Shown piece after piece: positions 3,806 through 64,000 of a stretch of 64,000 bases of DNA. The translations under genes and the position numbers were made by a program. The notes beneath the pieces are model-generated. The model was given only the letters and a program-made list of their open reading frames with translations. It ran no database searches and was not told where the DNA came from. The stretch is from contig NZ_CP048000.1 of the NCBI RefSeq assembly GCF_009931695.1, forward strand, positions 1,515,001 to 1,579,000, given 5' to 3'. The number at the start of each line of letters is the position of its first letter. Within the stretch, counting starts at the first letter, position 1. The DNA comes from Anaerocolumna sedimenticola. GTDB lineage: Bacteria > Bacillota > Clostridia > Lachnospirales > Lachnospiraceae.

Positions 3806-3819
3806 ACTAGCTCCCATTG

Positions 3820-7220: not shown

Positions 7221-7521
7221 ATGCTTCCTCCATATTAAACTATTGCCTATTTCCAATTATCGTTTATAATAATACTTATCGGTAATTGTTTTCCAATTTG
7301 CCAATAAAGGCGGTGTCTTAACCGCCCTACATCCGACGATAGGAATACAAAAGACGGAATGCAGTTACTTTCTAATTCTTTATTTTACCTTATTTTCGTT
7401 AAAAATAAAACTATAATTTAAAAATACCTAATGAAATACCCTTTTGTTTACAAATCATTCATATAATGTTCATATGTAAATGTTAAAATAAACATACGGA
7501 TTGTCCTAAAGGAGAAAAGAA

Positions 7522-8892: not shown

Positions 8893-8910
8893 TAAAAAAG
8901 ACAGATAATG

Positions 8911-8945
8911 AAAGGCTCTTAAATTTATGGTTTAAGAGCCTTTTT
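8911..8945 (+). terminator. Rho-independent terminator after the HtrA-like gene
   Basis: AAAGGCTCTTAAA and TTTAAGAGCCTTT arms with a short loop, followed by T residues. It can serve both strands (the ROK gene converges from the right). Confidence 0.85.
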
Positions 8946-8994
8946 GATATGTAATTTGTTTCATTACTAAATTAATTAAATATATAAAACCCTA

Positions 8995-10200
8995 TTATCC
9001 TATAAAAAATGAATTAGACAAGTCTTTCGTAAATGCGTAATGAACATCAAAAAAGTATTTCATAGCACCATTTAAAAAAGCATTGGAATCTAATTTTGAA
9101 TACTGTACTTCCACGTTATCAACCATTCTTCTAAAACCTGTAGATTTTAAATTTTTATTAATCTCCTCTAAAAATAAATCACCAAGAAGAATACTTTTAC
9201 CACCAAGTATTATAAGATGGGGATTTACAATGGAGATTAAGTTAGCCAGACCATAGGATAGAACATGAGCAATCTCTTTTATTACTTTTTTTGATACGGC
9301 ATCTCCGTATAGAGCAGCATTACCCAGTGTTGCAAAAGTAATTGCCGGCAGGCGGTCTAAAGCCGGGCTGCCACCCTCAGACTTAACCATTTTAGCTAGA
9401 GCACTTTCGCCCATCATAGCTTCAAGACAGCCTCGGTTACCACAGGCACACAGAACACCATCCGGATCTGCGGTATAATGTCCGAACTGCGTAGATGCTC
9501 CATTTGCTTTACCAACCATTTTATTTCGAATAAAAAGAGTTGCTCCTATACCACGACTAAAATTTATGAATGCAAAGTCGGGTTCGGTCACACGAGCGTA
9601 TACTTTCTCAGCATATGCAGAACAGGCGGTATCCTCCAGTATTGCTACGGGAAATTCACGAAATGTTGATTTTAATGATGCAATAAGATTCATACCCTCC
9701 GATTTTGGCAGACTGAGGGTTGTTGAGTAAATTTCTTCATTAACAGCATCTATCATTGCAGATACAACTACACAGACACCAAGGATTTGTTCTCTATTTA
9801 CTTGAGTCAGGATATTTTCATCCATACATTTACGGGATAATGAGACATAAGTATCATCCCCTTCCAATTTAAGATGAAGTTCAAAGGTTGTGGCGCCTGT
9901 TATATCCATTAAATATAAATTAACAAAATTCTCTATCCAACTAAAAACGACAACATAATAGCTGGATGGTTTTACATGCAGACTGTTTGGCTTACGGCCA
10001 ACATTATTTGAATCCGTTACTCCGGAATCATAAACAAAACCGCGGTTAATTAATTCATCTATAAGAGTAGAGACCGTTGTTTTACTCAAATTAGATAATT
10101 TAGCTAATTGTGCTCTGGAGATGCCACTATTATTATATATTGCATTATATAACAGTTTCATATTAGAATCTTTAATTAGGTGTTGATTTACTAGTTTCAA
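8995..10200 (-). CDS. ROK-family transcriptional repressor (NagC/XylR type)
   Basis: 401 residues. N-terminal winged helix (GISRAQLAKLSNLSKTTVSTLIDELINRGF, ~29-58) and a ROK sugar-kinase-like domain with the zinc-binding motif CACGNRGCLEAMMG (~252-265) and glycine-rich sugar-site residues. It is divergent from the sugar operon at 10549-15623 and separated from it by 348 bases, so it most likely represses that operon in response to its sugar. Confidence 0.92.
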   Translation of the reverse strand: MKLVNQHLIKDSNMKLLYNAIYNNSGISRAQLAKLSNLSKTTVSTLIDELINRGFVYDSGVTDSNNVGRKPNSLHVKPSSYYVVVFSWIENFVNLYLMDITGATTFELHLKLEGDDTYVSLSRKCMDENILTQVNREQILGVCVVVSAMIDAVNEEIYSTTLSLPKSEGMNLIASLKSTFREFPVAILEDTACSAYAEKVYARVTEPDFAFINFSRGIGATLFIRNKMVGKANGASTQFGHYTADPDGVLCACGNRGCLEAMMGESALAKMVKSEGGSPALDRLPAITFATLGNAALYGDAVSKKVIKEIAHVLSYGLANLISIVNPHLIILGGKSILLGDLFLEEINKNLKSTGFRRMVDNVEVQYSKLDSNAFLNGAMKYFFDVHYAFTKDLSNSFFIG

Positions 10201-10366
10201 GTTAATACCTCCTGGTATATTATATCTTAGAAAAATTGAAACATATTGAGGGATTTTGAGGGGTATGTCAATTAATTAATCCAATTAACTTACTAATATA
10301 TAAATATTACCATAATCACATTATTTTAGCAATAATTTTATTTTTAGTGATTTAATAAAAAAGGAA

Positions 10367-10395
10367 TTGACATTAAAGATTGCCAGTGTTATCAT
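10367..10395 (+). promoter_or_regulatory. Promoter of the sugar operon
   Basis: TTGACA (10367-10372), 17 bases, TATCAT (10390-10395), about 150 bases before the first gene. The whole divergent region 10201-10548 is AT-rich and otherwise holds no ORF I can support; a repressor site is expected here, but I could not pick one with confidence. Confidence 0.65.
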
Positions 10396-10548
10396 GAGAA
10401 TAGATTAAAAGTTCCAAAAATTACCCTAAATAACAAATTTTATGACATGACAACTGTGCGCTAGGATAATGGGGACTTTTTTTTAAAGACAATTAATAAG
10501 GTGGGTGGACAAACTAATAACTTTATCTTTTAGAAAAGAGGTGTCATT

Positions 10549-11559
10549 ATGAAAGTAGGACTTATTGGTTGCGGAGGAATGGGAACCGTACATAATCTGT
10601 CCTTAAAAGAATTATCTAAGCAATATGATATCCAGGTAACCGCAGTTGCAGATTGCAGAGAAGAATTTTTGGAAAAGGCGGCCGGACAGTGGTCAAATGT
10701 TCAAAAATTTAAATACGGTAAGGACTTAATTGAAAATGCAGATGTTGATATCGTACATATTTGTGTTCCCAGTTACTTACATGCTGATTTAGCAATTCAG
10801 GCCATGGAAAAGGGAAAAAACGTCTTTGTGGAAAAGCCGGTATGTCTTAGTAAGGAAGATTGTCAGAGATTATTAGATACGGAAAAGAAAACCGGCGTAA
10901 CGGTTATGGTAGGTCAGGTAGTAAGATGTTTTGATGAATATAGGTTTTTAAAAGATGCCTATGATAATAAAACTTATGGAAAGCTTCAATCTATTATGAT
11001 GCATAGATTGAGTGGAGATACTACCTGGGGGTGGGAAGACTGGTTCCATGATATAAACAAAAGCGGATCAGTTATATTAGACCTCCATATACATGATACG
11101 GATTTTCTTAGATATATGATAGGCGAACCGGATAGTTATAAAGTATACGCAACAAAATTTGAAAGCGGAATGCCGAATCAGGTAGTTACCACATATGAGT
11201 TCGGAGATACTTTTGCAGTAGTAGAAGGAACATGGGATATTTCATCAAAAATGCCTTTTGAAGCATATTACAGAGCTGCTTTCGAGGAAGCAACCATAGT
11301 TTTTTCCGGCTTACATGAACCGCATGTGAGCATTTATCATAAGGACGGAACAGTTACAATTCCGGAAATAAAACCGGAATATGATGTACAGGATGATACT
11401 GCGGGCATAAATATTTCCAGTTTAGGTGCATATTATACGGAGATTAAATACTTCATAGAGTGTTTAGTGAATAATAAACCTATTAAAATTGCTCCGCTGT
11501 CAGAAGGTGTTAAGTCAGTTTTACTTACTTTAAACGAATTATCAGAGGCAATGAAATAA
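10549..11559 (+). CDS. Gfo/Idh/MocA-family NAD(P)-dependent sugar oxidoreductase
   Basis: 336 residues. Rossmann motif GLIGCGGMGTVHN at the N-terminus; the EKPVCLSKEDC motif (~96-106) holds the family catalytic Lys; the C-terminal alpha/beta domain has DLHIHDTDFLRYM with the usual D/H pair. It is the first gene of an operon with a sugar-binding protein, two permeases and a sugar isomerase, so it probably oxidises or epimerises the imported sugar. The substrate cannot be read from sequence; inositol-like sugars are one possibility. Confidence 0.92.
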   Translation: MKVGLIGCGGMGTVHNLSLKELSKQYDIQVTAVADCREEFLEKAAGQWSNVQKFKYGKDLIENADVDIVHICVPSYLHADLAIQAMEKGKNVFVEKPVCLSKEDCQRLLDTEKKTGVTVMVGQVVRCFDEYRFLKDAYDNKTYGKLQSIMMHRLSGDTTWGWEDWFHDINKSGSVILDLHIHDTDFLRYMIGEPDSYKVYATKFESGMPNQVVTTYEFGDTFAVVEGTWDISSKMPFEAYYRAAFEEATIVFSGLHEPHVSIYHKDGTVTIPEIKPEYDVQDDTAGINISSLGAYYTEIKYFIECLVNNKPIKIAPLSEGVKSVLLTLNELSEAMK

Positions 11560-11618
11560 GAATATTTTATTATCTCTATAGTTAAATTTACTATTAAGCA
11601 AATCAAGGAGGAAATTTT

Positions 11619-12950
11619 ATGTTAAAGAAATCTCTAGCATTAATGTTAAGTTTGACAATGGTAGTATTTACGTTAGCAGGGTGCAGAGGGGGTGCATCAA
11701 CAGAAACAAATAATGATGCCGGTTCAGCGTCTACCGTATCAAGTGAAGCAGGAAGTACGGATACTGGTGCAGATACAAGTGCTGCTTCAGGTGAGAATGT
11801 GACTTTGACGGTATTTGACGCCCAGGCATATGGTCTTGAAAGATATGATGAATTAGTTAAGAGCTTTGAAGAGAGTCATCCAGGGGTAAAAGTTGAAGTA
11901 CAGCATGCTGCCAATGATACGGATACCATATTAAAGGCAAGGGTTAACTCTGATGATGTTCCGGATGTATTTGCCGTACAGACTGGAACACAAGCTAAGT
12001 CTTATTATGATTTCGCTTATGATTGGACCAATGATTCGGATACTTTGGTAAAGTTTAATGAAGCGGCAATCGATACAGGCAAAGATGCAGATGGTAATAT
12101 AAAATCGTTACCATGGACATATGAAAATATGGGGCTTATTTATAATAAGGATCTATTTCAAAAGGCCGGTATCACCGAAGTTCCTACAACTGTATCACAA
12201 TTAGAGGATGCTTGTAAGAAGTTAGATGCAGCCGGTATCACCGCATTTGCACTTGCAGCAAAAGAAACTTGGGTATTAGGACAGTTCGCTACACATTTCT
12301 TAATGGACAAGTCTAAAGATGCAGCTGGTACGGTTGCAGCTATGAACGATGGTTCTTTAACTTTTGATACTGCTCCGAATTTTAAGAATTTATTTAAAGT
12401 ATTGGATTTAGCAGTTAAATATGGTCCTGATAAACCATTGGAAATTGATTGGGAAACTTCAGAAAATATGTTAGCAAATGGAGAAGCAGCTATTATCCAT
12501 ATGGGTGATTGGTGTCAGGCTACTCTGGATAAATTTAATCCTGACGCAAACCTTGGTTTCTTACCGTTTCCTGTAAGTGAAAATCCGGATGATACAACAC
12601 TTTTATCATCTGTTTCCTGGACATATATAGTAAACAAAGATTCTAAAAACCTGGATTTAGCAAAAGAATACTTAGAATACATATTAACTTCCGATGAAGG
12701 TTTAGATTGGATGTGTAATACAATCGGTTCTGTTCCGTCAGCAGCCGGAGAACATCAGGTTGCAGGTAAACTGGCAAATGATGCAGCAACTTATATTTCA
12801 GCAGGTAAAACCAATGGGTGGATTCATACATTATATCCGGACGGATATAACGATAGTACCATGGGACCTACACTTCAGGCTTATATGTTAGGTGATCTCC
12901 CAGTAGACGATGCAATCGCTGCTCTTCAGGCAGGTTGGGTTACGCAATAG
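11619..12950 (+). CDS. Sugar ABC transporter substrate-binding lipoprotein
   Basis: 443 residues. Lipoprotein signal peptide ending LAGC (Cys ~22), a Ser/Thr/Gly/Ala-rich tether, then a family-1 extracellular sugar-binding protein fold (DVFAVQTGTQAKSYYDF; TYENMGLIYNKDLFQKAG; AAIIHMGDW). AGGAGG lies before the ATG. The two permease genes follow; no ATPase is encoded in the operon, as is common for MsmX-type shared ATPases. Confidence 0.94.
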   Translation: MLKKSLALMLSLTMVVFTLAGCRGGASTETNNDAGSASTVSSEAGSTDTGADTSAASGENVTLTVFDAQAYGLERYDELVKSFEESHPGVKVEVQHAANDTDTILKARVNSDDVPDVFAVQTGTQAKSYYDFAYDWTNDSDTLVKFNEAAIDTGKDADGNIKSLPWTYENMGLIYNKDLFQKAGITEVPTTVSQLEDACKKLDAAGITAFALAAKETWVLGQFATHFLMDKSKDAAGTVAAMNDGSLTFDTAPNFKNLFKVLDLAVKYGPDKPLEIDWETSENMLANGEAAIIHMGDWCQATLDKFNPDANLGFLPFPVSENPDDTTLLSSVSWTYIVNKDSKNLDLAKEYLEYILTSDEGLDWMCNTIGSVPSAAGEHQVAGKLANDAATYISAGKTNGWIHTLYPDGYNDSTMGPTLQAYMLGDLPVDDAIAALQAGWVTQ

Positions 12951-12983
12951 TAAATAACTATATGATTTTATAGTAAATTTTAA

Positions 12984-13031
12984 AGGCGCTGTTGCAAATT
13001 CGAAAGAATATATTATTTTTGCAGCAGCCCT
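12984..13031 (+). repeat. CTGTTGCA-type inverted repeat, copy 1
   Basis: A GGCGCTGTTGCAAA arm and a TTTGCAGCAGCCC arm around an AT-rich loop, between the binding-protein gene and the first permease. It is related at its ends to hairpins at 18300, 23036 and 31390. It probably lowers read-through from the binding-protein gene to the permease genes. Confidence 0.6.
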
Positions 13032-13057
13032 TTGCTTTATAACAGGGAGGCGAAAAG

Positions 13058-13948
13058 ATGCGTGTCAAAACAAAAAGAAAAATATCAGATTGAATATGTT
13101 TTGCCATTTTCACCATACCGGCTTTAGTGTTTGTACTATTTGCGTCGGATATTCCTTTTGTGATGAATCTATACTATTCTGTATTTAAATGGAATGGCAT
13201 CAGTAAAGATATGACTTTTGTGGGTTTTGATAATTTCAAAAAGATATTTACGAATGATCCTTTATTTATAAAATCGGCTATGTTTACTTTAAAATATTCT
13301 GTTTTTTATGTAATAATTGTTAATATCATATCTTTAGCAGTCGCTTTAAAACTTGCAAAACAAAAGAAAAAGAACAGCCTGGGCCGGGCATTTTATTATG
13401 TTCCATATCTTATCAGCCTCACAGCCATCAGTTTAATCTGGAAATTTATTTTTGGACCAGGATTTGAGGCACTGTTTGATATGACCGGCTGGCAGTTTTT
13501 TAACTGGAGCTGGGTTGGTACACCCAAATTAGCTTTCTATGTTGTTGTAATTATGACTGTATGGCAAAACATAGGATTCTACATGGTTACCTATATAGCC
13601 GGAATCATAGGGGTTCCGGTAGATGTACTGGAAGCAGCCAGAATTGACGGTGCATCCAAAGGGATGGTTACAAAGAAAATTACTCTGCCGCTAATTATGC
13701 CATCTATCTCCATATGTTTATTTACATCTCTTACCTTTGCATTTAAATTATTTGATGTCATTATGGTATTTACAAAGGGCGGGCCGGCAAATTCCACTAT
13801 ATCAGTAGCTTACAATATCTATAAAGAAGCTTTTACCAATAGTAGTTATGGACTTGCAACAGCTAAATCACTGGTATTCTTTATTGCTGTATTAGTAGTT
13901 ACGGTTATCCAGATGAGAGTTACTAAGTCCAAGGAGGTTGAGGCATAA
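13058..13948 (+). pseudogene. Sugar ABC transporter permease (MalF type) with in-frame TGA at codon 12
   Basis: The natural start is ATG 13058, with GGGAGG upstream. It reads MRVKTKRKISD, then TGA (13091-13093), then ICFAIFTIPALVFVLFASDIP in the same frame. Relatives have Trp at this place (SDW-hydrophobic), so one TGG-to-TGA change explains the stop. The rest (273 residues from GTG 13127) is intact, with six membrane helices and the EAARIDGASKGMVTKKITLPLI loop that contacts the ATPase. Restart at GTG 13127 would cut into helix 1 and has no ribosome site. It may be a true null, a sequence error, or read through. Confidence 0.8.
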
Positions 13949-14778
13949 TGAGAAGAAAACATAAGGATATTGACATAGTATCATGGGTCATATTAGCTTG
14001 TTCCATATTTTGGCTTATGCCTCTTTTACTGATTTTTATCAATTCGTTTAAACCCTATAACGATATGATCCAGCATTTTTTGTCCTTACCATCCAGTATT
14101 AATTTTAATATGTATGAGGAGACCTGGACAACTTTTAAATTCTCACAACTTACGTTAACTACCCTTTTATATACCGTTTGTACGGTATTAGGAGTTGTAA
14201 TTTGCGCACCTATGGCAGCATATAAATTAGCAAGGACTAAGACAAAATATAGTACTGTTATATTCGGACTTATTATATTACCTATGATGGTTCCTTTTCA
14301 GGCTTATATGATTACCTTAACTAAATTAGTATCTAAAGTAGGTTTGAATGGGACTAAGATTGGTTATATCATGGTATCTGTGGGTCTTTGCATGCCTTTG
14401 GCGGTATTTATGATTCACGGATTTATTAAAGGAATTCCATTAGAATTAGAGGAGAGTGCGTTAATAGACGGGGCTTCTAGATACCGAACTTATTTTTCAG
14501 TGGTACTTCCGCTATTAAAACCGATCCTTACAACGGTAATCGTATTGGATGCGCTGGCAACCTGGAATGATGTTATTACCAATCAGTTAATTGTAGGAGG
14601 GAAACAAAACGCTTTAAATATACAAAATGCTTTATATATGCAATTTTCCGCCCAGACCGCAGATTGGGAACATGCTTTACCCGGGATAGTCATGTCAACG
14701 ATACCAAGCCTAATCTTTTTCGTATTTATGCAAAAACATATTGTCGGCGGAATAACTGCAGGAGCAGTAAAAGGTTAA
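13948..14778 (+). CDS. Sugar ABC transporter permease (MalG type)
   Basis: 276 residues, six predicted membrane helices, with the EAA loop LEESALIDGASRYRTYFSVVLPLLKP (~168-193). The ATG sits at the stop of the preceding permease (ATAATG junction), showing translational coupling. With the damaged partner upstream, the heterodimeric channel may be non-functional. Confidence 0.93.
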   Translation: MRRKHKDIDIVSWVILACSIFWLMPLLLIFINSFKPYNDMIQHFLSLPSSINFNMYEETWTTFKFSQLTLTTLLYTVCTVLGVVICAPMAAYKLARTKTKYSTVIFGLIILPMMVPFQAYMITLTKLVSKVGLNGTKIGYIMVSVGLCMPLAVFMIHGFIKGIPLELEESALIDGASRYRTYFSVVLPLLKPILTTVIVLDALATWNDVITNQLIVGGKQNALNIQNALYMQFSAQTADWEHALPGIVMSTIPSLIFFVFMQKHIVGGITAGAVKG

Positions 14779-14804
14779 ACATAACAGGTAAAGGAGAATT
14801 CGGA

Positions 14805-15623
14805 ATGAATGTTGGTGTTTTAATAGAACTTAACAATAATATAAATGAGAAGTTTGAAGAATTACGGGCCATGGGTATGAACAGCTGTCAGCTGGTATGC
14901 TGGGATGAAAATAAATTTACAGATGATATGGCTGAGTTAGTTAATCAAGCCGTTAAAAAATATGACGTAAATATTACAGCGTTTTGGTGTGGCTGGTCCG
15001 GTCCTGTAACCTGGGATTTTTATGACGGACAGCTTACTCTTGGATTAATACCACCTGCTTATCGTTTTCAGCGTTTGCAGACATTAATGCTTGGTTCTGA
15101 TTTTGCTAAGAAAATGAATATCAGAGACTTTGTAACCCATGTAGGTTATATACCGGAAAATCCTTATGATGAAAATTATACTGGTACCTTGGTTGCACTA
15201 AAGAAATTAATTGGCAAGTGTAAAGAAAATGGGCAGAATTTCTTATTTGAAACCGGTCAGGAGACACCGGTTACTTTAAGAAGGGCGATTGAAGATATTG
15301 GATATGATAATGTAGGGGTTAATCTTGATCCGGCTAATCTATTAATGTATGGTAAAGCAAATCCTATTGATGCACTTGATATATTAGATAAATATGTACT
15401 TGGCATTCACGGAAAAGACGGAATGTATCCTGCTGACGGCAAAAATCTGGGAGAAGAAAAACCCTTAGGAGAAGGAAGAGTAGATTATCCGAAATTTATA
15501 GCAAAACTTAAGGAAATCGGCTATCAGGGGGATATAACCATAGAAAGGGAAATATCCGGAGAAGAACAGAAAAAAGATATTATTATGGCAAAAAAAATAT
15601 TGGATGAATTGATTCAGGTTTAA
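14805..15623 (+). CDS. Sugar phosphate isomerase/epimerase (TIM barrel)
   Basis: 272 residues from ATG 14805 (AAGGAGAA upstream). Xylose-isomerase-like/AP-endonuclease-2 fold. Metal-site residues are visible in FVTHVGYIPE, FLFETGQET, VGVNLDPANLLMYG, VLGIHGKDG and ITIEREISG. It is the last gene of the sugar operon, followed by a terminator. With the Gfo/Idh enzyme it likely forms a two-step conversion of the imported sugar. Confidence 0.9.
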   Translation: MNVGVLIELNNNINEKFEELRAMGMNSCQLVCWDENKFTDDMAELVNQAVKKYDVNITAFWCGWSGPVTWDFYDGQLTLGLIPPAYRFQRLQTLMLGSDFAKKMNIRDFVTHVGYIPENPYDENYTGTLVALKKLIGKCKENGQNFLFETGQETPVTLRRAIEDIGYDNVGVNLDPANLLMYGKANPIDALDILDKYVLGIHGKDGMYPADGKNLGEEKPLGEGRVDYPKFIAKLKEIGYQGDITIEREISGEEQKKDIIMAKKILDELIQV

Positions 15624-54672: not shown

Positions 54673-54742
54673 GTATGTTGATTAAAATTATAACTTAAGC
54701 TTAAGTTTTTTCTGCTTTGGTTTATGCGAGGTGAGGTATTTT

Positions 54743-56455
54743 ATGGACGAAAGAAGAAGCAGTTCGGAATTAAAAGTGAGTGATAATGAGACGTTTAATA
54801 AAATACAAGACCGCTACAGCGTAATAATTGAGCAGACTAACTTGTTTATTTATGATTTAAATCTTATAAACCACGAAGTTTATGTATCGGATAACTTTAT
54901 TGAACTAACAGGAATACCATTCAAAAAGCAGGCTATCTTAAAACAGATGGTATGTAGTAAGAATGTACATCCGGATGATTTGGACAATTTTAAAAATTTT
55001 ATAAAACATGGTAAGGACGGAAGTCATTCCCATTCCATTACCTACCGGCGAAAAAATCCGGATGGCAGGTATGCTTGGATAAGAAGCAGTAAAAAAAGTA
55101 TTTTTAATGAATGCGGTAAACTCATTCGGGTCTTAGGGACGGCTCAGGATGTAAGTGCAGAGATGGAAGCATTCGAAAAAATAAAAAACCGCGCAGAGAA
55201 AGATGCACTGACCGATATTCCCAATCTTCTGAAGTTTACTGTTGATGCGGAAGAATTAATCCGAAATAACCGGGATAAGTCATATGCGGTAGTTGTTTTC
55301 GATATTGATAAATTTCGAATTATTAATGATTTATATGGGTCAAAAGAAGGGGACGGAGTATTAAAATATATTGGTTATATTTTGAAAACCAAAATCAGTC
55401 AATTTTTACACTGCCGCATGTACGCCGACAATTTCGCAATTTTAATGCAATATAATAAAGACTCCGATTTTAATAATATGGCAGATTTATTGAGAGAAGA
55501 GATGAAACAATACCCCTTAAATTTAGGGGTAATGCTTTCATTTGGCGTATGTAAGGCGGAAGATGAAACGAATATCATTACTTTATGTGATCGTGCCAGT
55601 CTTGCTAAAAAGACGATTAAAGGAAATGTATTAAAGTTAGTAGCCTATTATGATGAAACATTACGGCAGCGGGGAATTGAAGACAAAGATATCGAGAATG
55701 AAATGAACTTAGCGCTGGATAATGGGGAGTTTGAAATGTACCTCCAGCCGAAAGTATTAATTGCGACTACGGAAGTTGTAGGTGCTGAGGCTTTGGTCAG
55801 ATGGGTTCATCCATCAAAAGGAATCATTTCACCGGAGCGGTTCATTCCATTGTTTGAAAAGAACGGTTTTATTATCAAGTTAGATTATCTAATTTGGGAG
55901 ATGGCGTTTGCGACTTTAAGAAAGTGGTTGGATGAAGGTTTTATTCCCATCCCGATTTCAGTTAACGTTTCCCGTCTTCACTTACACAATTCCGATATTG
56001 TTCAGAAATTCATTCTGTTAGCGGAAAAATATCAGGTTCCGCGGAATCTTATTGAGTTGGAACTAACAGAAACAGCTTTTCTTAACAATCTGGATGAGTT
56101 ATCCTATTTGGCGCAGTGCTTAAAAAAAGAAGGTTTTATCCTTTCCATGGATGATTTTGGGACAGGTTATTCATCGCTTAATATGCTGAAAGATGTACCT
56201 GTAGATGTAATTAAGATTGACCGGGGTTTTTTAAATGAAGTAGTAGCTACAGAAAGAGGTAAAACGGTTATTCAATATACCATAGCAATGGCGAAAAAGT
56301 TAAATATTGAAGTCATAGCTGAGGGGGTTGAGAACTTTGTGCAGGCGGAATTTCTATATGAAGCCGGCTGCGAAACAGCCCAAGGCTATTTTTATTCAAA
56401 ACCGATACCCATTCCTAAGTTTGAACAGTATACATTTGGTTATATTAATAATTAA
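54743..56455 (+). CDS. PAS - degenerate GGDEF - EAL protein, c-di-GMP phosphodiesterase
   Basis: 570 residues from ATG 54743 (GAGGTGAGG upstream). A PAS domain (~20-145; HPDDLDNFKNF, RAYWIR-type end) precedes a GGDEF-like domain (~150-305) whose active site reads YADNF instead of GGDEF. The EAL domain (~315-565) is intact: EALVRW, ELTETAF, DDFGTGYSS, KIDRGF, AEGVE, QGYFYSKPI. It should therefore hydrolyse c-di-GMP and not make it. Soluble, with no membrane helix. A c-di-GMP riboswitch precedes it and a terminator follows. Confidence 0.93.
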   Translation: MDERRSSSELKVSDNETFNKIQDRYSVIIEQTNLFIYDLNLINHEVYVSDNFIELTGIPFKKQAILKQMVCSKNVHPDDLDNFKNFIKHGKDGSHSHSITYRRKNPDGRYAWIRSSKKSIFNECGKLIRVLGTAQDVSAEMEAFEKIKNRAEKDALTDIPNLLKFTVDAEELIRNNRDKSYAVVVFDIDKFRIINDLYGSKEGDGVLKYIGYILKTKISQFLHCRMYADNFAILMQYNKDSDFNNMADLLREEMKQYPLNLGVMLSFGVCKAEDETNIITLCDRASLAKKTIKGNVLKLVAYYDETLRQRGIEDKDIENEMNLALDNGEFEMYLQPKVLIATTEVVGAEALVRWVHPSKGIISPERFIPLFEKNGFIIKLDYLIWEMAFATLRKWLDEGFIPIPISVNVSRLHLHNSDIVQKFILLAEKYQVPRNLIELELTETAFLNNLDELSYLAQCLKKEGFILSMDDFGTGYSSLNMLKDVPVDVIKIDRGFLNEVVATERGKTVIQYTIAMAKKLNIEVIAEGVENFVQAEFLYEAGCETAQGYFYSKPIPIPKFEQYTFGYINN

Positions 56456-56575: not shown

Positions 56576-56881
56576 ATGGATAACTACAGACGTCCAATGA
56601 ATACCCGTTATAACAGAAACATGGGTTCCTATCAAAATCCTCAATGTGACTGCGGCGTTACCCCGGTTATGGAAGCCGGTGATCGTTGTGGCAAAGATGA
56701 TTACGATAAATGTCTTGAAAAATTTCCGCTGGCAATGGCATATGTACCTTTCCAAAAATGGAGAAAGGTTATGGATGCACGCGAAGGTTTAGCAGTAGGG
56801 ACAATATTCCAGGAACTAAACTTACCATGGTATGGCGATAGAAATATGTGTGGAATGAGAGGTGATAGGCATGACAAATAG
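56576..56881 (+). CDS. cotJA: Spore coat-associated protein CotJA
   Basis: 101 residues, AAGGAG before the ATG. After an Asn/Arg/Tyr-rich start comes the CotJA core EKFPLAMAYVPFQKWRKVMDAREGLAVGTIFQELNLPWYG. It is the first gene of the cotJABC operon, whose products form an inner-coat complex made in the mother cell. The end overlaps cotJB by 11 bases. Confidence 0.95.
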   Translation: MDNYRRPMNTRYNRNMGSYQNPQCDCGVTPVMEAGDRCGKDDYDKCLEKFPLAMAYVPFQKWRKVMDAREGLAVGTIFQELNLPWYGDRNMCGMRGDRHDK

Positions 56882-57128
56882 AAGCCGTGAGCAGTTAATG
56901 TGTATTATCACCGAATCCAGTTTTGCATTAGATGACGTCAAGTTATTTTTAGACACTCATCCTTATGACAGGGAAGCTTTGGATTATTATCAGAATTACA
57001 GGCAGATTCGTAAAGAAGCTATGAAAGAATACAGAGATTGTTATGGACCTATCTCGGCTTATGATGTAGCAGATGCTAATTATTGGACTTGGATAGACGA
57101 ACCATGGCCATGGGAAGGAGCGTGCTAA
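56871..57128 (+). CDS. cotJB: Spore coat protein CotJB
   Basis: 85 residues from ATG 56871 (AGAGGTG upstream). The family core SFALDDVKLFLDTHPYDREALDYYQNYRQIRKEAMKEYRDCYGPISAYDV and the ending WTWIDEPWPWEGAC are complete. It overlaps cotJA and is followed three bases later by the cotJC start, as in other spore formers. Confidence 0.95.
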   Translation: MTNRSREQLMCIITESSFALDDVKLFLDTHPYDREALDYYQNYRQIRKEAMKEYRDCYGPISAYDVADANYWTWIDEPWPWEGAC

Positions 57129-57131
57129 TTT

Positions 57132-57335
57132 ATGTGGAATTATGAAAAAAGATTGCAACATCCTGTAAACATCAAAAACCCTAATGCGAAAGCAGCAAAA
57201 TTTATAATTACCCAGTTTGGCGGGCCAGACGGCGAATTAGCAGCTTCCATGCGTTATTTATCTCAAAGATATACCATGCCTTATAAAGAAGTTACTGCGG
57301 TATTAACCGATATAGGTATATCGGGTTCAAAATGA
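57132..57335 (+). CDS. cotJC: CotJC (manganese-catalase-like coat protein), N-terminal part, interrupted
   Basis: MWNYEKRLQHPVNIKNPNAKAAKFIITQFGGPDGELAASMRYLSQRYTMPYKEVTAVLTDIG is CotJC residues 1-62. After 57318 the sequence leaves the family and ends ISGSK-stop. The continuation TEELAHMEIVSTIV is found at 63834 in the correct phase. Joining 57318 to 63834 rebuilds the codon for Thr and the conserved LTDIGTEELAHME block, which holds Glu/His metal ligands. In the present arrangement no functional CotJC can be made. Confidence 0.93.
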   Translation: MWNYEKRLQHPVNIKNPNAKAAKFIITQFGGPDGELAASMRYLSQRYTMPYKEVTAVLTDIGISGSK

Positions 57336-57340
57336 CACTA
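57295..57340 (+). other. attL: left junction of the cotJC element
   Basis: Core AGGTA at 57314-57318 in the context CCGATAT-AGGTA-TATCGGGTTC. The left side belongs to cotJC; the right side (TCGG 57321-57324, AAATGAC 57330-57336) is the right half of the element's own dyad. Together with attR it defines exchange within AGGTA, with GG (57315-57316) as the central dinucleotide. Confidence 0.8.
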
Positions 57341-57426
57341 AATATGCTTGACTTTTTCATAGCTTGCAATCATACTATGGAATAGAAAATAATAGAATAC
57401 CTGCCGAAGAACTAAGGAGGACTTAA

Positions 57427-58290
57427 GTGGATAAACATAATACATTATGGGCAAAAATAAAAGAATATATATATATAACCCTTGGGGTTGAGTTAGTAGT
57501 TATAGGTGTCTACTTTTTTAAATTCCCTAATCATTTTTCAATTGGCGGTGTAACCGGGTTAGCCATCCTGTTAAGTAATATATTAGGACCTGCAATCAGC
57601 TCGGGAACCCTTGTTTTAATTATTAATTTTATATTACTAATAGTGGGATATGCTGTATTAGGGAAAAGTTTTGGGAACCGTACGGCCTACGGAAGCATAT
57701 TAATGTCCTTATCTCTAAAACTTCTGGAATTATTGGTGCCAATGAATGGTCCGATAACCAACGAACCTATGCTGGAACTTGCATTTGCTGTTATCCTGCC
57801 GGCTGTGGGAGCAGCCATGTTATTTAATATAGGCGCCTCAACCGGAGGAACCGATGTAACAGCAATGTTGCTGAAAAAATATACAAATGCTGATATAGGA
57901 AAATCATTATTATATTCCGATTTCGTTTTAACACTTTTTGCATTTGTTGTTTTCGACGTTAAAACAGGATTGTTATCTTTATTAGGGTTATTCTTAAAAT
58001 CAACATTAGTGGATACCGTAATTGAAAGTATGAACTTAAATAAGTATTTTACAATTATATGTAAAGAGCCTAAACCAATCTGTGATTATATTTTAAATCA
58101 CCTACACCGTAGTGCTACGATTTGTGACGCGAAAGGTGCTTTCTCAGAAAAAGAAAAAAAACTTATCTTAACGGTTATGAACCGCAGCCAGGCAGTACAA
58201 TTAAGAAGATTTATCAAGCAGACGGAACCGGATGCGTTTATACTTATAACAAATACAAGCGAAATTGTGGGACGAGGTTTCCGAGCTTAA
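57427..58290 (+). CDS. YitT-family membrane protein
   Basis: 287 residues, GTG start with AAGGAGG upstream. Five to six membrane helices (YitT_membrane: FFKFPNHFSIGGVTGLAILLSN; NIGASTGGTDVTAMLLKKYTNADIGKSL) and a C-terminal DUF2179 domain (~205-287; CDAKGAFSEKEKKLILTVMNRSQAVQLRRFIKQTEPDAFILITNTSEIVGRGF). Function is not established. First cargo gene of the cotJC element, 90 bases after attL. Confidence 0.92.
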   Translation: MDKHNTLWAKIKEYIYITLGVELVVIGVYFFKFPNHFSIGGVTGLAILLSNILGPAISSGTLVLIINFILLIVGYAVLGKSFGNRTAYGSILMSLSLKLLELLVPMNGPITNEPMLELAFAVILPAVGAAMLFNIGASTGGTDVTAMLLKKYTNADIGKSLLYSDFVLTLFAFVVFDVKTGLLSLLGLFLKSTLVDTVIESMNLNKYFTIICKEPKPICDYILNHLHRSATICDAKGAFSEKEKKLILTVMNRSQAVQLRRFIKQTEPDAFILITNTSEIVGRGFRA

Positions 58291-58372
58291 AGGACACGCC
58301 AGCGTTATAACTGTTTTTTTGCTAATTCCCATACTTACAATGCATAGATATTCTGCGACAGATTTTCTCTCC

Positions 58373-59131
58373 TCATCCGGATATGATTTTGATAAATAAA
58401 AGACATATTACAGTTAAAATAATAGGACGTATGATTTTATAACCATTTTTTAAGACAAGTCCCGAACCGATATAATTACCGGCAATACTAAAAAGAGCTG
58501 CAGTTAAACCTAGTAAGAAAATTATTTTTCCATTAAGGATAAAGGTTATCAAGGCTGCTATATTAGAAGATAAGTTTACCAGTTTGGTATTACCGGATGC
58601 GATTCTAATATCCATCCGGGCCAGACCGGTATAGATAAGAATCAAAAAAGTTCCGGTTCCCGGACCGTAAAATCCATCATAAGCTCCTATTACAAAAGCT
58701 GCACCAAAAGCAATGAGACATACTTTCTTTCTTGGAAGGGGGTTCTCTTTAGCTTTATCTGCAAAGGAATTGTTTTTAATAACATAAAAGCCCACTACCG
58801 GTAGAATCATTAAAAGGATATATTTTAAGAACTTTTCATTAACTAAAAGTGCCAGATTAGCTCCGAGAGTGGAACCTGACAAAGCCAGTAATATGGATGG
58901 TATTCCAATCCCCCAATCAACCAGTTTATTTTTACAGTAGCGGAATGTGGCAATAGCAGTACCCACGCTTGATGACAGCTTATTGGTAGCTATTGCATAG
59001 TGAGGGGGAAGACCGGCAATAAAATAAGCAGGGAGAGAAATTAGTCCGCCGCCGCCGGCAATCGAATCAATGAGTCCGGCAAGAAATACCAAAGGGCAGA
59101 CAATCAAAAAAGTATGTAAGGTAATTTCCAT
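58373..59131 (-). CDS. TSUP-family (TauE/SafE) sulfite/sulfonate-type permease
   Basis: 252 residues, about eight membrane helices. LAGLIDSIAGGGGLISLPAYFIAGLPPHYAIATNKLSSSVGT and GAYDGFYGPGTGTFLILIY are the two TSUP signature halves. These proteins are linked to export of sulfite, sulfoacetate or other small anions. It is the only minus-strand gene in the cotJC element. Could handle sulfur species with the Rieske/FAD enzyme next to it, but that is a guess. Confidence 0.92.
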   Translation of the reverse strand: MEITLHTFLIVCPLVFLAGLIDSIAGGGGLISLPAYFIAGLPPHYAIATNKLSSSVGTAIATFRYCKNKLVDWGIGIPSILLALSGSTLGANLALLVNEKFLKYILLMILPVVGFYVIKNNSFADKAKENPLPRKKVCLIAFGAAFVIGAYDGFYGPGTGTFLILIYTGLARMDIRIASGNTKLVNLSSNIAALITFILNGKIIFLLGLTAALFSIAGNYIGSGLVLKNGYKIIRPIILTVICLLFIKIISG

Positions 59132-59542
59132 AATAATCTCCAGTCTATTTATGTTTTATAAGTATTAACGTATGTAAATGGTAACTTCTATCGATTCTCA
59201 TTCAAAGGTTAATTCACCCCAAATCAGCATATCCATTCTATATTAATAAAGTTAAAGAACCCTGAATCAGTATATCTACTCTGCTTCCTTAAGTCAATAA
59301 TATTATAAATTATACTTCATTTAATATTGAGTTATTAGGTAACCTGAATTACATGAGTGTATTTATATTCAAGGATCAAAAGTCCACTTAATGTGATTTT
59401 TTATAATAGGATGTCTATGATTCAATTTAGATTTAAACTAATAAACAGCTGAATCTTTTGGTATTAAATCTAAAGTTATTTGAGTATAATATTTGATTCT
59501 GGTAATTCTATCATTATAAATGGATAGAAAGGAAAATAATTT
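59132..59542. other. 410-base divergent intergenic region in the element
   Basis: Very AT-rich, no credible ORF. A direct repeat AATCAGYATATCYAYTCT occurs twice (about 59222-59239 and 59265-59282), 43 bases apart, possibly a protein-binding site between the divergent TSUP and oxidoreductase genes. Nothing else supported. Confidence 0.35.
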
Positions 59543-61027
59543 ATGAGTTCAGATAATTGTACGTTAACGAATCATAATACGGAATCGATATGGAAAAAAG
59601 AGTGTCAGTTTGAAAAGAGAGAACAATTAAAAAATGATATAAATGCAGATGTTGTTATTATTGGGGCAGGTATGGCCGGATTATTGACGGCTTTTTTACT
59701 AAAAAAGAAAGGTATTGATGCAGTGGTTCTGGAAGGAAACGAAATTGCAAGCGGCCAGACACAAAATACAACGGCAAAAATCACTTCACAGCATACTTTA
59801 ATTTATGACAACCTGCTTCAGAAATTTGGCAGGGAAAAAGCACATTTATACGGTATGGCCAATGAAGCAGCGATACAGATGTATGCAGATTTAATCAATG
59901 AGTATAACATTTCCTGTCATTTTGAAAGAATTCCATCCTATGTATATACGAAAGATGATGTTTCAAAAATTGAAAAAGAAGTTAAAGCAGCAGAGGAATG
60001 CGGCATCAAAGCAGAATTTACTGCAGATACAACTCTTCCTTTTTCTATCAAAGGAGCAGTCAAATTTATAAACCAGGCAATGTTTAATCCCCTGGAATTT
60101 CTGCAGGAAGTTACCAAACCCCTAAAAATTTATGAGCATACCATGGTAAAAGGAATTGAAGATATGGTTGTTTTAACAGATGGGGGGAAAGTGAAAGCAA
60201 AGGAAATTGTTGTTGCAACCCACTATCCGTTTATCAACAGCCCTGGATATTATTTTGTGAGAATGCACCAGGAAAGATCCTATGCCCTTGCAATCAGTAA
60301 TGTACCCATGCTTGATGGTATGTATAAAGACGAAAGTCAATCCGGATATTCCTTCAGAAACTATAAAGACATGATTATATTAGGAGGTGGAAGTCATCGA
60401 ACCGGTGAAAATTCCTCCGGAGGAAAATATGAAAACTTAAGGAAGGCAGCAAGTGAATATTATCCTGAAAGTAAGGAAGTATGTCATTGGTCCGCCCAGG
60501 ATTGCCATTCGGTGGATAAGATACCTTATATCGGGAAATATGCCGCGACCACTCCAAATCTCTATGTGGCAACTGGCTTTAAAAAGTGGGGTATGACCAG
60601 TTCCATGGTATCTGCCAAGATATTAAGTGATAAAATAAGCGGTAATAAGAATCCCTTTGAAGAGGTATTTGATCCCCAAAGATTTGAAGTTACTGCTTCC
60701 ATGTCAGGACTTATGGATGAAACAAAACATACCGTGGAAAATCTAATCTTAAAGAAATTCAAAATACCGGAGACAAAACTGGATGAAGTCCCCAATGGTC
60801 ATGGGGCATTAATAGAAGAAGAGGGGCATAAGATTGGGGTTTATAAGGACATAGAGGGGCAAGTATTTACGGTATTGGCCAAATGCACCCATTTAGGCTG
60901 CCAACTGGAATGGAATCCGGATGAATTATGCTGGGAATGCCCCTGCCATGGTTCCCGTTTTGATTATACCGGTGCTTTAATTAATAATCCTGCCCTTAAG
61001 AGTCTGGAGCGTGAGCAGCATAATTAA
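59543..61027 (+). CDS. FAD-dependent oxidoreductase with C-terminal Rieske domain (YhfW-like)
   Basis: 494 residues. A DAO-type FAD domain begins ADVVIIGAGMAGLLTAFLLKKKGIDAVVLEG (~33-64) and has the C-terminal FAD contact LYVATGFKKWGMTSSMVSAKIL. A Rieske [2Fe-2S] domain (~415-492) has CTHLGC and CPCHGSRF ligands. Architecture as in B. subtilis YhfW. The lack of a final Gly-rich segment after SLEREQHN shortens the Rieske domain slightly. Redox partner and substrate unknown. Cargo of the cotJC element. Confidence 0.92.
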   Translation: MSSDNCTLTNHNTESIWKKECQFEKREQLKNDINADVVIIGAGMAGLLTAFLLKKKGIDAVVLEGNEIASGQTQNTTAKITSQHTLIYDNLLQKFGREKAHLYGMANEAAIQMYADLINEYNISCHFERIPSYVYTKDDVSKIEKEVKAAEECGIKAEFTADTTLPFSIKGAVKFINQAMFNPLEFLQEVTKPLKIYEHTMVKGIEDMVVLTDGGKVKAKEIVVATHYPFINSPGYYFVRMHQERSYALAISNVPMLDGMYKDESQSGYSFRNYKDMIILGGGSHRTGENSSGGKYENLRKAASEYYPESKEVCHWSAQDCHSVDKIPYIGKYAATTPNLYVATGFKKWGMTSSMVSAKILSDKISGNKNPFEEVFDPQRFEVTASMSGLMDETKHTVENLILKKFKIPETKLDEVPNGHGALIEEEGHKIGVYKDIEGQVFTVLAKCTHLGCQLEWNPDELCWECPCHGSRFDYTGALINNPALKSLEREQHN

Positions 61028-61922
61028 AAATATTCACAAAAAATCCTTTTTTGAAGGCTGGTATTTTAAATGTCAAAAGGGAGATCAGATAATTTCATTT
61101 ATCCCAAGTTACAGTACGGATAAAAATGGAATATCCCAGGTATTCATACAGATTATTATGAATGACAATTCTTATATGGTTTCCTATCAGTTGGAGGATT
61201 TTTACCTTAACCGTAAAAATCAATTTATACGGATAGGGAATAACAGCTTTTGCAGAAAAGGAATTAAAATTGACATCGATACGGAGGGTATTTCAATAAA
61301 CGGTATCCTGTATTTCGGTAAAATGGAACCTCTCCGGTATACTATCATGGGTTATTATCATTATTTTCCCGGAATGGAATGCAAGCATGAAATTATCAGT
61401 ATGTATCATAAGATAAAAGGAAGCTTAAAGTGTAACGGAAGAGAATATTCATTTTGTTCGGGTTCCGGTTACCTGGAAAAAGATATGGGGAATTCCTTTC
61501 CCAAGACTTACACCTGGATACAGTGCAATCATTTTCCGGCAGAAAAATGTTCGGTCTTTATTTCCATAGCTGAAATTCCCTACCATGGAATTCATTTTCA
61601 GGGTTGTATCTGTGCCATACATTATAAAGGAAAAGAATACCGGTTTGCCACCTATCTCGGAGTAAAAGTTTTAAAAAGTACCCGTAATGAAATATGCTTA
61701 AAGCAGGGGAAATACTTATTTAAAGTAAAACTTTTTAATAGTAAAAAGGGAATGAATTATTCTCCTGAGTTTTCTCACAAACTGTTTGCTCCGGTATTTG
61801 GAGAGATGTCAAGAACCATCAAAGAGCAACATTTAACCGCCGGTGAATTTCTGCTTTATGAAAAAGGCAACTTAATAATTCCTCTTAGCAGCAGTAAAGT
61901 AAGTTATGAATATGTTGAATAA
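61011..61922 (+). CDS. Tocopherol-cyclase-like protein
   Basis: 303 residues, GTG start overlapping the oxidoreductase end by 17 bases. The HKKSFFEGWYFKCQKGD start, YSFCSGSGYLEKDMGNSFPKTYTWIQCNHF middle and FSHKLFAPVFGEMSRTIKEQ end match the bacterial tocopherol-cyclase-like beta-barrel family. No biochemical role is known for the bacterial members. The ribosome site (GGAGC) is only two bases from the GTG, so translation probably depends on coupling. Confidence 0.82.
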   Translation: MSSIIKNIHKKSFFEGWYFKCQKGDQIISFIPSYSTDKNGISQVFIQIIMNDNSYMVSYQLEDFYLNRKNQFIRIGNNSFCRKGIKIDIDTEGISINGILYFGKMEPLRYTIMGYYHYFPGMECKHEIISMYHKIKGSLKCNGREYSFCSGSGYLEKDMGNSFPKTYTWIQCNHFPAEKCSVFISIAEIPYHGIHFQGCICAIHYKGKEYRFATYLGVKVLKSTRNEICLKQGKYLFKVKLFNSKKGMNYSPEFSHKLFAPVFGEMSRTIKEQHLTAGEFLLYEKGNLIIPLSSSKVSYEYVE

Positions 61923-61923
61923 C

Positions 61924-61956
61924 GGTTACAGTTCAGCCACAAGGCTGAAAATGTAA
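61924..61956 (+). other. Hairpin after the tocopherol-cyclase-like gene
   Basis: GTTACA-g-TTCAGCC and GGCTGAA-aa-TGTAAC form a strong stem with an ACAA loop. There is no T-run. It may separate the cargo genes from the recombinase cassette. Confidence 0.5.
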
Positions 61957-62023
61957 CGAATAACGTACAACCTCCAAATAATAAATTGTATCAACCCTGA
62001 TTTTATTGTTTGGAGGTTTATTA

Positions 62024-62218
62024 TTGAATGGTAATACAAAGCTGATTTTTAAACAGGATAATATGGATATATTTGAATGTAAAAATGCTGAATTCCTCTT
62101 TCATTTACAAGAAGCGCTGCTCCTGGTACTAATGGATAAAGAAATGATTGACCGGTATCAATCAGATGAATATCTTATAGAACAGCGAGAAAATCACAAA
62201 AAGGTGGTGATTCCATGA
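62024..62218 (+). CDS. Small protein coupled to the recombinase gene
   Basis: 64 residues from TTG 62024, which has GGAGG nine bases upstream; in-frame codons before it lack a site. The sequence is charged and helical (NAEFLFHLQEALLLVLMDKEMIDRYQSDEYLIEQRENHKK), loosely SHOCT-like. Its stop overlaps the recombinase ATG (ATGA), so the two are co-translated. Position and size make it a candidate recombination directionality factor or recombinase partner. Confidence 0.65.
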   Translation: MNGNTKLIFKQDNMDIFECKNAEFLFHLQEALLLVLMDKEMIDRYQSDEYLIEQRENHKKVVIP

Positions 62219-63864
62219 AAGTTGCTGCCTATTGCAGGGTCTCTACGGAGACGGATGATCAATTAAATTCCCTGGAAAATCAAAAGATATTTTTCAATGA
62301 TTATATTAACCGGAATCCCGGGTGGGAGCTTTCAAAAATCTATGTGGATGAAGGTATAACCGGAACCAGTATTAAGAAAAGATTTGCTTTTTTACATATG
62401 TTAAGGGATGCGCAAAGCCATGAATTTGAGTTGGTTCTGACGAAAGAAATCAGCCGTTTTGCCCGGAATACCTTGGACAGTATATATTATACCCGGATGT
62501 TAAAGAATTTGGGAATCGGTATTATTTTCCTAAACGATAATATTAATACACTGGATAAGGATGCGGAGCTGCGACTTACCATTTTAGCTTCCATAGCACA
62601 GGAGGAAAGCCGCAAAACTTCTGACCGTGTAAAATGGGGACAAAAGCGCAGTATGGAGCGGGGTGTGGTATTCGGGACTAATATGCTTGGGTATGATTTA
62701 AGAAATGGTAAGTTATATATCAATGAGGGAGAAGCAGAAACGGTACGATTAATTTTTAATAAATTTGTAAAAGAGAAAAAAGGTACCCATGTAATTGCCC
62801 GGGAACTCTCGGAGGCTGGTATTCCAACGGCAAGCGGTAAAAATAAATGGTATGGGGCAGTAATCCTTAAAATCTTAAAAAATGAAAAATACTGCGGAGA
62901 TTTGATTCAAAAGAAAACATACACGCCTGATTATTTAGATCATGAAAAAAAATATAATCACGGAGAAGAGGATTTAATAACAATTTATAATCATCATGAA
63001 CCTATAATTGAAAGAGAGCTGTTTTGTCAGGCGCAAGCAGAATTAAAACAAAGGCTTCTTCTGCCGGGAGAGAAAAAGAAATATACTAACAGATACTGTT
63101 TTTCAGGACTGATAAATTGCGGAATCTGCGGCCATTCTTATGTTTCACGGTCGAAAAAACTTAAAGACCAAGGAGTATACCGATATTGGCGGTGTTATGA
63201 AGCCGTACAGAGAGGAAAACAACATACTGATTCTAACGGAAATATAAAGGGATGTAATAACAGTACCATAACAGAGGAAGATTTAAAGTTTATTCTGAAG
63301 GATTTAATTCAAAAATTAAACATTGATAAAGAAGAGCTGCTTAGTAATGTATATAGGATTTTTAAAAAGACTGTTAATGAGGATTACAAAAGTACGGAGC
63401 CGAAACAGATACAGGAAAAACTTCAGAAAAATATATTAAAAAAGCAATATTTGATTGATTTATATCTTTCAAATGAAATAACAGAAACAGATTATAATGT
63501 ACTAAAACAAAAATATGAAACAACCATTAGTCAGTTAAGAAGGGAGTTAGAGAAACGTATTCAGAAAGATAAGGATACAAATCAGATTACGTCAGAGGTT
63601 AAAAAAAAGAAAGTTTTAGATGATATCAGGCAAATTCTATTTCCGGTTATAAACGGTTTAGAATGGAATGATATCTTTTATCATAATATCCTGGATAAAA
63701 TTAATATTTACCGCATAGAGGATACAGAAAATTCAGATGTCACATATGCTGAAGTATATTTAAAAGGAATACATAATAGCTTTACTTATCAGATAAATAA
63801 AAGTAATTCGTCATTTCAAAGCCGAGGCAGGTACAGAAGAACTGGCACATATGGAAATCGTTAG
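62215..63864 (+). CDS. Large serine recombinase of the cotJC element
   Basis: 549 residues. Resolvase catalytic domain (AAYCRVSTETDDQ with the nucleophile Ser at ~10; EISRFARNTLDS; AQEESRKTSDRVKWG), recombinase domain (~155-270), zinc ribbon (CGICGHSY ... CYEA ... CNN) and a coiled-coil region (~385-465). The coding region runs 31 bases past the attR core, so its last residues and stop lie in cotJC sequence; after excision the end would change to RYIGFKMTLNML... It presumably catalyses both insertion and excision. Confidence 0.95.
   Translation: MKVAAYCRVSTETDDQLNSLENQKIFFNDYINRNPGWELSKIYVDEGITGTSIKKRFAFLHMLRDAQSHEFELVLTKEISRFARNTLDSIYYTRMLKNLGIGIIFLNDNINTLDKDAELRLTILASIAQEESRKTSDRVKWGQKRSMERGVVFGTNMLGYDLRNGKLYINEGEAETVRLIFNKFVKEKKGTHVIARELSEAGIPTASGKNKWYGAVILKILKNEKYCGDLIQKKTYTPDYLDHEKKYNHGEEDLITIYNHHEPIIERELFCQAQAELKQRLLLPGEKKKYTNRYCFSGLINCGICGHSYVSRSKKLKDQGVYRYWRCYEAVQRGKQHTDSNGNIKGCNNSTITEEDLKFILKDLIQKLNIDKEELLSNVYRIFKKTVNEDYKSTEPKQIQEKLQKNILKKQYLIDLYLSNEITETDYNVLKQKYETTISQLRRELEKRIQKDKDTNQITSEVKKKKVLDDIRQILFPVINGLEWNDIFYHNILDKINIYRIEDTENSDVTYAEVYLKGIHNSFTYQINKSNSSFQSRGRYRRTGTYGNR
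63806..63855 (+). other. attR: right junction of the cotJC element
   Basis: Core AGGTA at 63829-63833 in the context CCGAGGC-AGGTA-CAGAAG. The left side (GTCATTT 63810-63816, CCGA 63822-63825) is the left half of the element's dyad; the right side is cotJC. It overlaps the 3' end of the recombinase gene. Confidence 0.8.
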
Positions 63865-64000
63865 TACCATAGTTCATCAATTAACAAGAAATTTAACGAT
63901 TGAAGAAATTAAAGCAGCCGGTTTTGAAACTTATTTTGTAGACCATACGGTAGGTTTATGGCCGCAGGCCGCAAGCGGTATGCCGTTTAGCTCAACTTTC
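63834..64000 (+). CDS. cotJC: CotJC, continuation after the element (runs off the window)
   Basis: Read in phase with the N-terminal part (one base of the Thr codon from 57318 plus CA), it encodes TEELAHMEIVSTIVHQLTRNL, TIEEIKAAGFETYFVDHTVGLW and PQAASGMPFSSTF: the manganese-catalase-like core of CotJC with EE and H ligands. It has no start codon or ribosome site of its own. The gene should continue about 230 bases beyond the window. Confidence 0.92.

Follow-up and report, generated by a model that had tools for sequence, protein, structure and literature searches.

Serine recombinase elements interrupt the spore-coat gene cotJC in Anaerocolumna sedimenticola and its relatives, with predicted excision in the mother cell

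The cotJ operon and the interrupting element

We analysed a window of 64,000 nucleotides from the genome of Anaerocolumna sedimenticola (genus Anaerocolumna, Lachnospiraceae; genome G000 in our set, one contig of 5.5 Mb, the window being G000:C1:1515001-1579000), in which the spore-coat gene cotJC is divided by an element that encodes a large serine recombinase (LSR), a small candidate directionality factor and four metabolic genes. With a length of 6,515 bp (57314-63828) and AGGTA at either end, it lies in the coding region of this sporulation gene, which it cuts within codons 61-62. In the integrated state the 5' frame of cotJC runs on to a stop at 57333-57335, and when the two parts are joined at AGGTA the phase is restored and an open reading frame (ORF) of 198 residues results, which ends with a stop beyond the window, at virtual position 64243. 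The joined protein matches the solved proteins 6j42 and 4r42 (1e-21) and the Mn catalase 1jku (5e-12). An earlier note on this DNA had described intact cotJA and cotJB, a cotJC family match that breaks off early, AGGTA at both break points with a phase-restoring join, and a large serine recombinase at the right edge, and all of these observations hold for the features below.

56576..56881, + strand: cotJA, complete, 101 amino acids (aa); Pfam PF11007 CotJA, E 1.3e-17, whole profile covered
56862..57128, + strand: cotJB, complete, 88 aa from the first listed start (85 from the ATG at 56871); PF12652 CotJB, E 3.8e-30, whole profile covered
57132..57313, + strand: cotJC 5' part, the first 60 codons of the joined gene and most of codon 61; covers only positions 1-63 of 284 of the Mn_catalase profile
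57314..57318, + strand: left AGGTA core (attL), with GG at 57315-57316 as the predicted crossover dinucleotide
57427..58290, + strand: cargo, YitT-family membrane protein, 287 aa; PF02588 2.8e-54, PF10035 5.4e-18
58373..59131, - strand: cargo, TauE/SafE-family permease, 252 aa; PF01925 9.2e-45
59543..61027, + strand: cargo, FAD-dependent oxidoreductase with a Rieske domain, 494 aa; PF01266 9.8e-40, PF00355 6.5e-13
61011..61922, + strand: cargo, tocopherol-cyclase-like protein, 303 aa; PF14249 3.3e-18
62006..62218, + strand: ORF of 70 aa that overlaps the start of the LSR; candidate recombination directionality factor
62215..63864, + strand: LSR, 549 aa; PF00239, PF07508, PF13408; PHROG integrase 1.3e-116
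63829..63833, + strand: right AGGTA core (attR)
63834..64000, + strand: cotJC 3' part, extending past the window to virtual position 64243 (locus L004)

The LSR matches three recombinase domains (Resolvase 3.6e-29, Recombinase 6.3e-24, Zn_ribbon_recom 9e-11), and its last codons (63829-63864) are the cotJC 3' part read out of frame. Since the end of the LSR is encoded beyond the core, excision would alter the recombinase's own C-terminus. A PHROG scan of the element's six proteins found no virion structural genes; the LSR matched families of integrases and invertases, for the YitT and TauE proteins the matches were families without assigned function, and the FAD/Rieske protein weakly matched one metabolism family (5.7e-05). 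This, together with the exact join, agrees with the earlier description of a skin-like element, with a precise junction and cargo unrelated to phage structure. The 70-aa ORF had no family match in the Pfam and PHROG scans. The symmetry of the attachment sites of the window is weak, at 10, 5, 6 and 6 of 22 positions for attL, attR, attB and attP, respectively. Before cotJA lies an ORF of 574 aa (54731-56455), which by eye resembles a GGDEF/EAL signalling protein.

Split cotJC genes in the genus and the family

Upon searching 15 genomes of the genus, we found a cotJC match in 14. The window's cut is also present in G402 (6,393 bp), G404 (7,451 bp) and G399 (7,363 bp), as well as in G397, where it falls on two contigs. 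G402 and G404 are complete chromosomes, and with this recurrence assembly error was rejected as the cause of the split. The earlier note had looked to relatives with an undivided gene, and cotJC is uninterrupted in three members of the genus (G345, G400, G024). Furthermore, G402 and G404 are cut once more, near codon 174 (57 kb and 37 kb, respectively), the codon-174 cut occurs alone in G406 (17 kb) and likewise in G405, with the pieces on separate contigs, and a cut near codon 31 is found in G403 (36 kb) and G408 (47 kb). Two further observations concern single genomes: in G397 (L039, ORF 1474-3537) the LSR frame is in phase with the cotJC 3' part, giving an LSR-CotJC fusion ORF of 687 residues in the integrated state, and in G024, with its uninterrupted cotJC, sigK lies in two pieces about 9 kb apart (G024:C62:161476-161793 and 170609-170956; profile 24-129 and 111-225).

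The elements at the window's site that lie on one stretch (G000, G402, G404, G399) share five larger genes in identical order, namely YitT, TauE, FAD/Rieske, tocopherol-cyclase-like and recombinase. Between G000 and G402, the element genes show a synonymous divergence (dS) of 0.60-0.98 and a nonsynonymous divergence (dN) of 0.03-0.10, a low dN/dS, with a dS of 0.40 and a dN of 0.04 for cotJC. From these comparisons it is likely that the element at this site and cotJC descend jointly in the genus, with purifying selection on both. A tree of cotJB and cotJC from ten genus genomes places G000, G402 and G404 together (89/94); G399 is weakly placed, so that the element may have had more than one origin in the genus.

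At the level of the family, 397 genomes were drawn and 244 had a cotJC-like match. We observed that cotJC is split in at least 87 of these 244 genomes, the window genome included, at four places (five at base resolution), with at least 101 splits in total (site B 36, A 35, D 17, C 13). Two cuts in one cotJC were found in 14 of the 87 split genomes, and in 63 of the 87 no further full-length copy was found, in assemblies of varying completeness. The matches of 151 distinct genomes besides the window's were listed again in full, in sets of 40, 65 and 46 (16 of the 46 were typed, those with partial matches that might pair, and two short matches of G370 were left out), and the remaining 92 of the 244 genomes were judged from the match table alone, which makes 87 a lower bound. 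Five genomes were set by hand (G150, G284, G310, G299 and G149, with G150 not read to the base), and G037 and G095 were excluded from the split count owing to a frameshift or contig gap. Also uncounted were 18 genomes, G037 and G095 included, where pieces occur without a full-length copy and without two that pair at one site. The same holds for genomes in which a full-length copy is accompanied by an unpaired piece, e.g. G280, G132, G225 and G048. Outside the family, among the matches listed for 243 genomes of the class, which were not counted, the same end points recur (59-198 in G603, G551 and G636; 1-137 in G521). Blautia sp. An249 (L158) has cotJC pieces 1-85 and 61-136 on the same strand together with a window-type LSR; the second piece ends at site D, and judging by these pieces the gene probably has two cuts.

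To the base, 51 elements were read, from 40 fetched family loci and seven genus genomes. They occupy five insertion points, A at about codon 31, B1 at about 62 (the window's), B2 at about 65, D at codons 134-136 and C at about 174, and every one of them adjoins invariant residues. In all 41 joined or intact sequences the residues G30, G31, E35, E64, E65, H68, A135, E136, H169, R172, F173, G174 and E175 are invariant, and among these E35, E65, H68, E136 and H169 are the presumed di-manganese ligands of the Mn-catalase family, in line with the alignment to 6j42, 4r42 and 1jku. At each site certain bases are identical on both sides of every element, as a crossover dinucleotide requires (A 15/15, GG; B1 12/12, GG, within codon 62; B2 7/7, GA; D 5/5, GCAGA; C 12/12, GGTGA; the letters are the commonest bases). 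Averaged over the 51 elements, the longest stretch of identical bases in the join interval measures 7.6 bases, compared to 2.1 for random pairs of stretches, and on this difference a chance repeat at the element ends was rejected; the core has at least 5 bases in 43 of the 51.

By a motif-and-length rule an LSR is present in 50 of the 51 elements, within 500 bp of an end in 43 of these. Element sizes vary widely, from 1,591 bp to 57 kb among those read and up to about 118 kb in the family listing (G255). Small elements are close to an LSR alone, e.g. G310 (1,852 bp) and G201 (2,190 bp). At site A of G403 the element is a prophage of the contractile-tail type, with genes for terminase, portal, sheath and baseplate (20 proteins scanned), and the site-C element of G402 holds Kdp, two-component and transport genes (27 proteins scanned). 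Among 81 loci of a viral collection with site-A- or site-C-type LSRs, 8 had a piece of cotJC next to the LSR; it was not seen in the other 73, many of which end near the LSR. The eight contigs (L181, L216, L221, L224, L225, L227, L242 and L245) all carry a site-A-type LSR. With the window LSR as query, a scan of viral contigs confirmed no relative.

All 38 sets that are complete on one fetched stretch join into a frame of 197-240 codons, where the join point was chosen inside the junction interval by likeness to the window CotJC with stops penalised, and where in three sets the printed frame starts after the start codon. Within the genus, dN/dS is 0.014-0.10 for pairs of split genes (14 of 21 pairs with unsaturated dS), 0.027-0.067 for split against intact (12 of 21) and 0.031-0.045 for intact pairs (2 of 3). 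For codons 64-170, the part that has no start, it is 0.013-0.093 in the five unsaturated split-split pairs listed, and it reaches 0.23 in short parts of 22 codons. By these ratios, the cotJC halves in the genus are under strong purifying selection.

Recombinase clades, candidate partners and a possible sign of excision

We next consider the recombinases, in a tree of the 50 element LSRs and 13 others (L041 and L044, two of 15 outside sequences, were left out, since the ORF chosen for them was not the LSR). Sites A (15 LSRs), B2 (6), C (12) and D (5) each have their LSRs together on one side of a branch with 100/100 support. The 12 LSRs of B1 need three changes on the tree and have among them L151, L153 and L154, for which targets were not found, so the LSR clade of the window is not exclusive to cotJC. 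Just outside B1, in an earlier LSR tree that held one wrong ORF (D_G273), stand L155-L157, from metagenome-assembled genomes of Ruminiclostridium, Eubacteriales and Eubacterium, in which the LSR adjoins the C-terminal part of dpaA; the DpaA_N half is present in two of these three genomes. The gene dpaA encodes dipicolinate synthase A and is itself a mother-cell sporulation gene. In L178 (G434) both dpaA halves lie on one contig: the DpaA_N match (3e-30) ends at AACGCAATCCC, the element measures 14,269 bp (919-15187) and carries an LSR close to the window's, and the join gives an open DpaA frame.

Upon examining the regions upstream of the LSRs by eye, we recognised a small ORF of common pattern directly upstream of 8 of the 12 B1 LSRs (G000, G402, G404, G399, G270, G388, G283, G243) and of all seven related LSRs examined (L151, L153-L158). 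Another common small ORF stands at 10 of 12 site-C LSRs and a third at 4 of 5 site-D LSRs, and none was recognised upstream of the site-A or site-B2 LSRs. By analogy with the factors CD1234 and GirX discussed below, these small ORFs are candidate directionality factors.

A possible sign of excision comes from the draft genome G405, in which the left contig C52 ends with ...CAGAGATTTGGTGAA (short form ...TTTGGTGAA), the right contig C11 starts with GGTGAATCATTAAG (short form GGTGAATCATT), and a contig of 7,352 bp (C74) begins and ends with GGTGAA and encodes an LSR 77% identical to the site-C LSR of G406. Three contigs meeting at a 6-base core form the assembly-graph pattern expected if integrated and excised forms coexist. 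The search with a site-C left-end pattern had given 0 of 5 in five genus genomes, and it was the later LSR search that gave the G405 element contig. In G398, G016 and G172, too, a contig stops on one side at the invariant dinucleotide or no more than three bases from it; the other side of G172 reads into the element, and the contigs of G011 and G095 end elsewhere.

Predicted excision in the mother cell, competing readings and known systems

We consider it probable that the LSR element interrupting cotJC is excised at AGGTA in the sporulating mother cell, which would restore the gene of 198 codons. The split, the core, the recombinase, the in-frame join, the recurrence in relatives and the selection on the halves, all shown here as far as sequence can do so, carry this reading, and we infer that the excision occurs in the mother cell during sporulation. 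In B. subtilis, cotJ is expressed in the mother cell under sigE. The LSR encoded at 62215 would cut at the GG inside the AGGTA core, with the 70-aa protein encoded just upstream serving it as directionality factor, and complete CotJC would be made in the mother cell. The mother cell is not inherited, and the element would thereby be kept in the spore genome; selection on the host gene would keep both cotJC halves intact, and the element would gain a harbour of low cost. Four further recombinase clades appear to have arrived at the same solution at the other four points of the gene, and their cargo extends from next to nothing to a prophage.

Several observations weigh against this reading. The window genome has a second, complete cotJABC operon near 1,307,163, whose CotJC has 202 residues and is 73% identical, and the split copy need not be essential. 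At site B2, the element of G350 (L132; 1,591 bp) is without an LSR and either can no longer leave or relies on a recombinase acting in trans; the LSR frames of G155 (273 aa), G319 (355), G310 (384) and G320 (392) are short; and the core of G402 at the window's site has 3 bases. Some of these elements may no longer be able to leave. Between G000 and G402 the element dS exceeds that of cotJC, which leaves room for another history than joint descent, and a copy of the element elsewhere in G405 could give much the same contig pattern. Upstream of the 50 LSRs a strict sigE-like promoter pattern was found in none, a loose one in 4, a weak excess (the mean after shuffling was 1.1, and 7 of 200 shuffles reached this count), and a sigK-like pattern in 2 (reached in 18 of 200 shuffles). 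No excised junction of the window's own element was seen in the assemblies.

The strongest alternative, which we regard as unlikely, is that ordinary integrative elements land in cotJC and that excision is rare, stress-driven or random, with no sporulation-specific restoration. It would account for the prophage at site A of G403, for the eight viral loci with a cotJC piece beside the LSR and for the lack of a clear mother-cell promoter signal, and the G405 assembly also fits spontaneous excision. Against it stand the 63 of 87 split genomes in which no other full-length copy was found, the joinability of all 38 sets, the purifying selection on the halves with conserved elements in place, the elements that are little but an LSR, and the related LSRs beside another sporulation gene, dpaA. 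Far less probable is a dead split copy whose work is done by a complete second cotJC. A full-length match is present besides the split one in 24 of the 87 split genomes, that of the window among them, but the low dN/dS of split pairs, which extends to codons 64-170, the full-length joins, the presumed metal ligands, which do not vary in any of the 41 sequences, and the same 63 genomes led us to reject a dead gene. That the halves are two polypeptides assembling into a working protein is hardly credible: both are open frames and the G397 LSR frame is in phase with the 3' part, but each of the five cut points would need its own working split, and by eye the first ATG of the window's 3' part (63851) lies downstream of the presumed ligands E65 and H68, so that a separately made 3' protein, a start for which the earlier note had considered, would be without both.

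Excisable elements are known in sigK, gerE, spsM, spoVFB and yabG (PMC5025042; PMC5595907; PMC4191935; PMC10747680). The skin element in sigK of C. difficile and B. subtilis is likewise described as an LSR element in a sporulation gene whose excision restores the gene, and in C. difficile the directionality factor CD1234 is reported there to restrict excision to the mother cell (PMC5025042). In contrast to skin, the target here is a coat enzyme and not a sigma factor, sigK of the window genome is uninterrupted (one open frame at 3,419,624), the scan of the window's cargo revealed no phage structural gene, and one gene is entered at five insertion points by different LSR clades. The gin element in gerE of B. 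cereus ATCC10987 is also a non-prophage element, for which the recombinase GirC and the 42-residue GirX are both reported to be needed for rearrangement in sporulation; it differs in its size of 28.6 kb, its three recombinase genes and its target, and is described in B. cereus-group strains (PMC5595907). SP-beta (spsM), vfbin (spoVFB) and yin (yabG) are similarly presented as prophages or prophage-like elements in sporulation genes, but with other targets and phage-like content, and the portions consulted do not mention several points of one gene (PMC4191935, PMC10747680). In C. difficile, the attR of the prophage phi027 adjoins a CotJC-like coat gene, but, in the accessible text, that gene is a 678-bp ORF downstream of attR and is not reported as interrupted (PMC11222575, PMC12122855). 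We found no report of elements in cotJC or dpaA in the open-access literature, with subscription papers and preprints outside the search. A single such element belongs to a known class; what is new here is one gene entered at five points by five sets of LSRs, sometimes twice, by elements that can be close to recombinase-only.

Regarding the function of the target, the CotJC homologues of C. difficile are described as putative catalases of the spore surface, and mutants of cotCB and cotD keep their spore yield (PMC9542656). This loss without lower spore yield may explain why the elements are tolerated so well.

Developmental excisions, in the literature consulted, concern few genes with one element at one site each. 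In cotJC, a gene of about 600 bp, several split points, unrelated recombinase clades and dozens of genomes form natural replicates, usable for asking what draws elements to mother-cell genes, by which routes directionality factors evolve and whether a recombinase nearly without cargo can persist as a DNA intron, and the matched pairs of LSR and attachment sites are directly testable in plasmid assays. Overall, we lean towards the wider view that five clades of recombinases came independently to occupy five points next to codons of the metal-binding motifs and that, across much of Lachnospiraceae, the coat catalase would be made only after one or two somatic DNA splicings in the mother cell, the smallest elements, with hardly more than a recombinase and its partner, behaving as DNA introns that leave somatic DNA but persist in the germ line. 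DNA-level splicing is likely a common way to make CotJC, and, if this is true, many genomes whose cotJC (or dpaA) seems disrupted may nevertheless make the whole protein.

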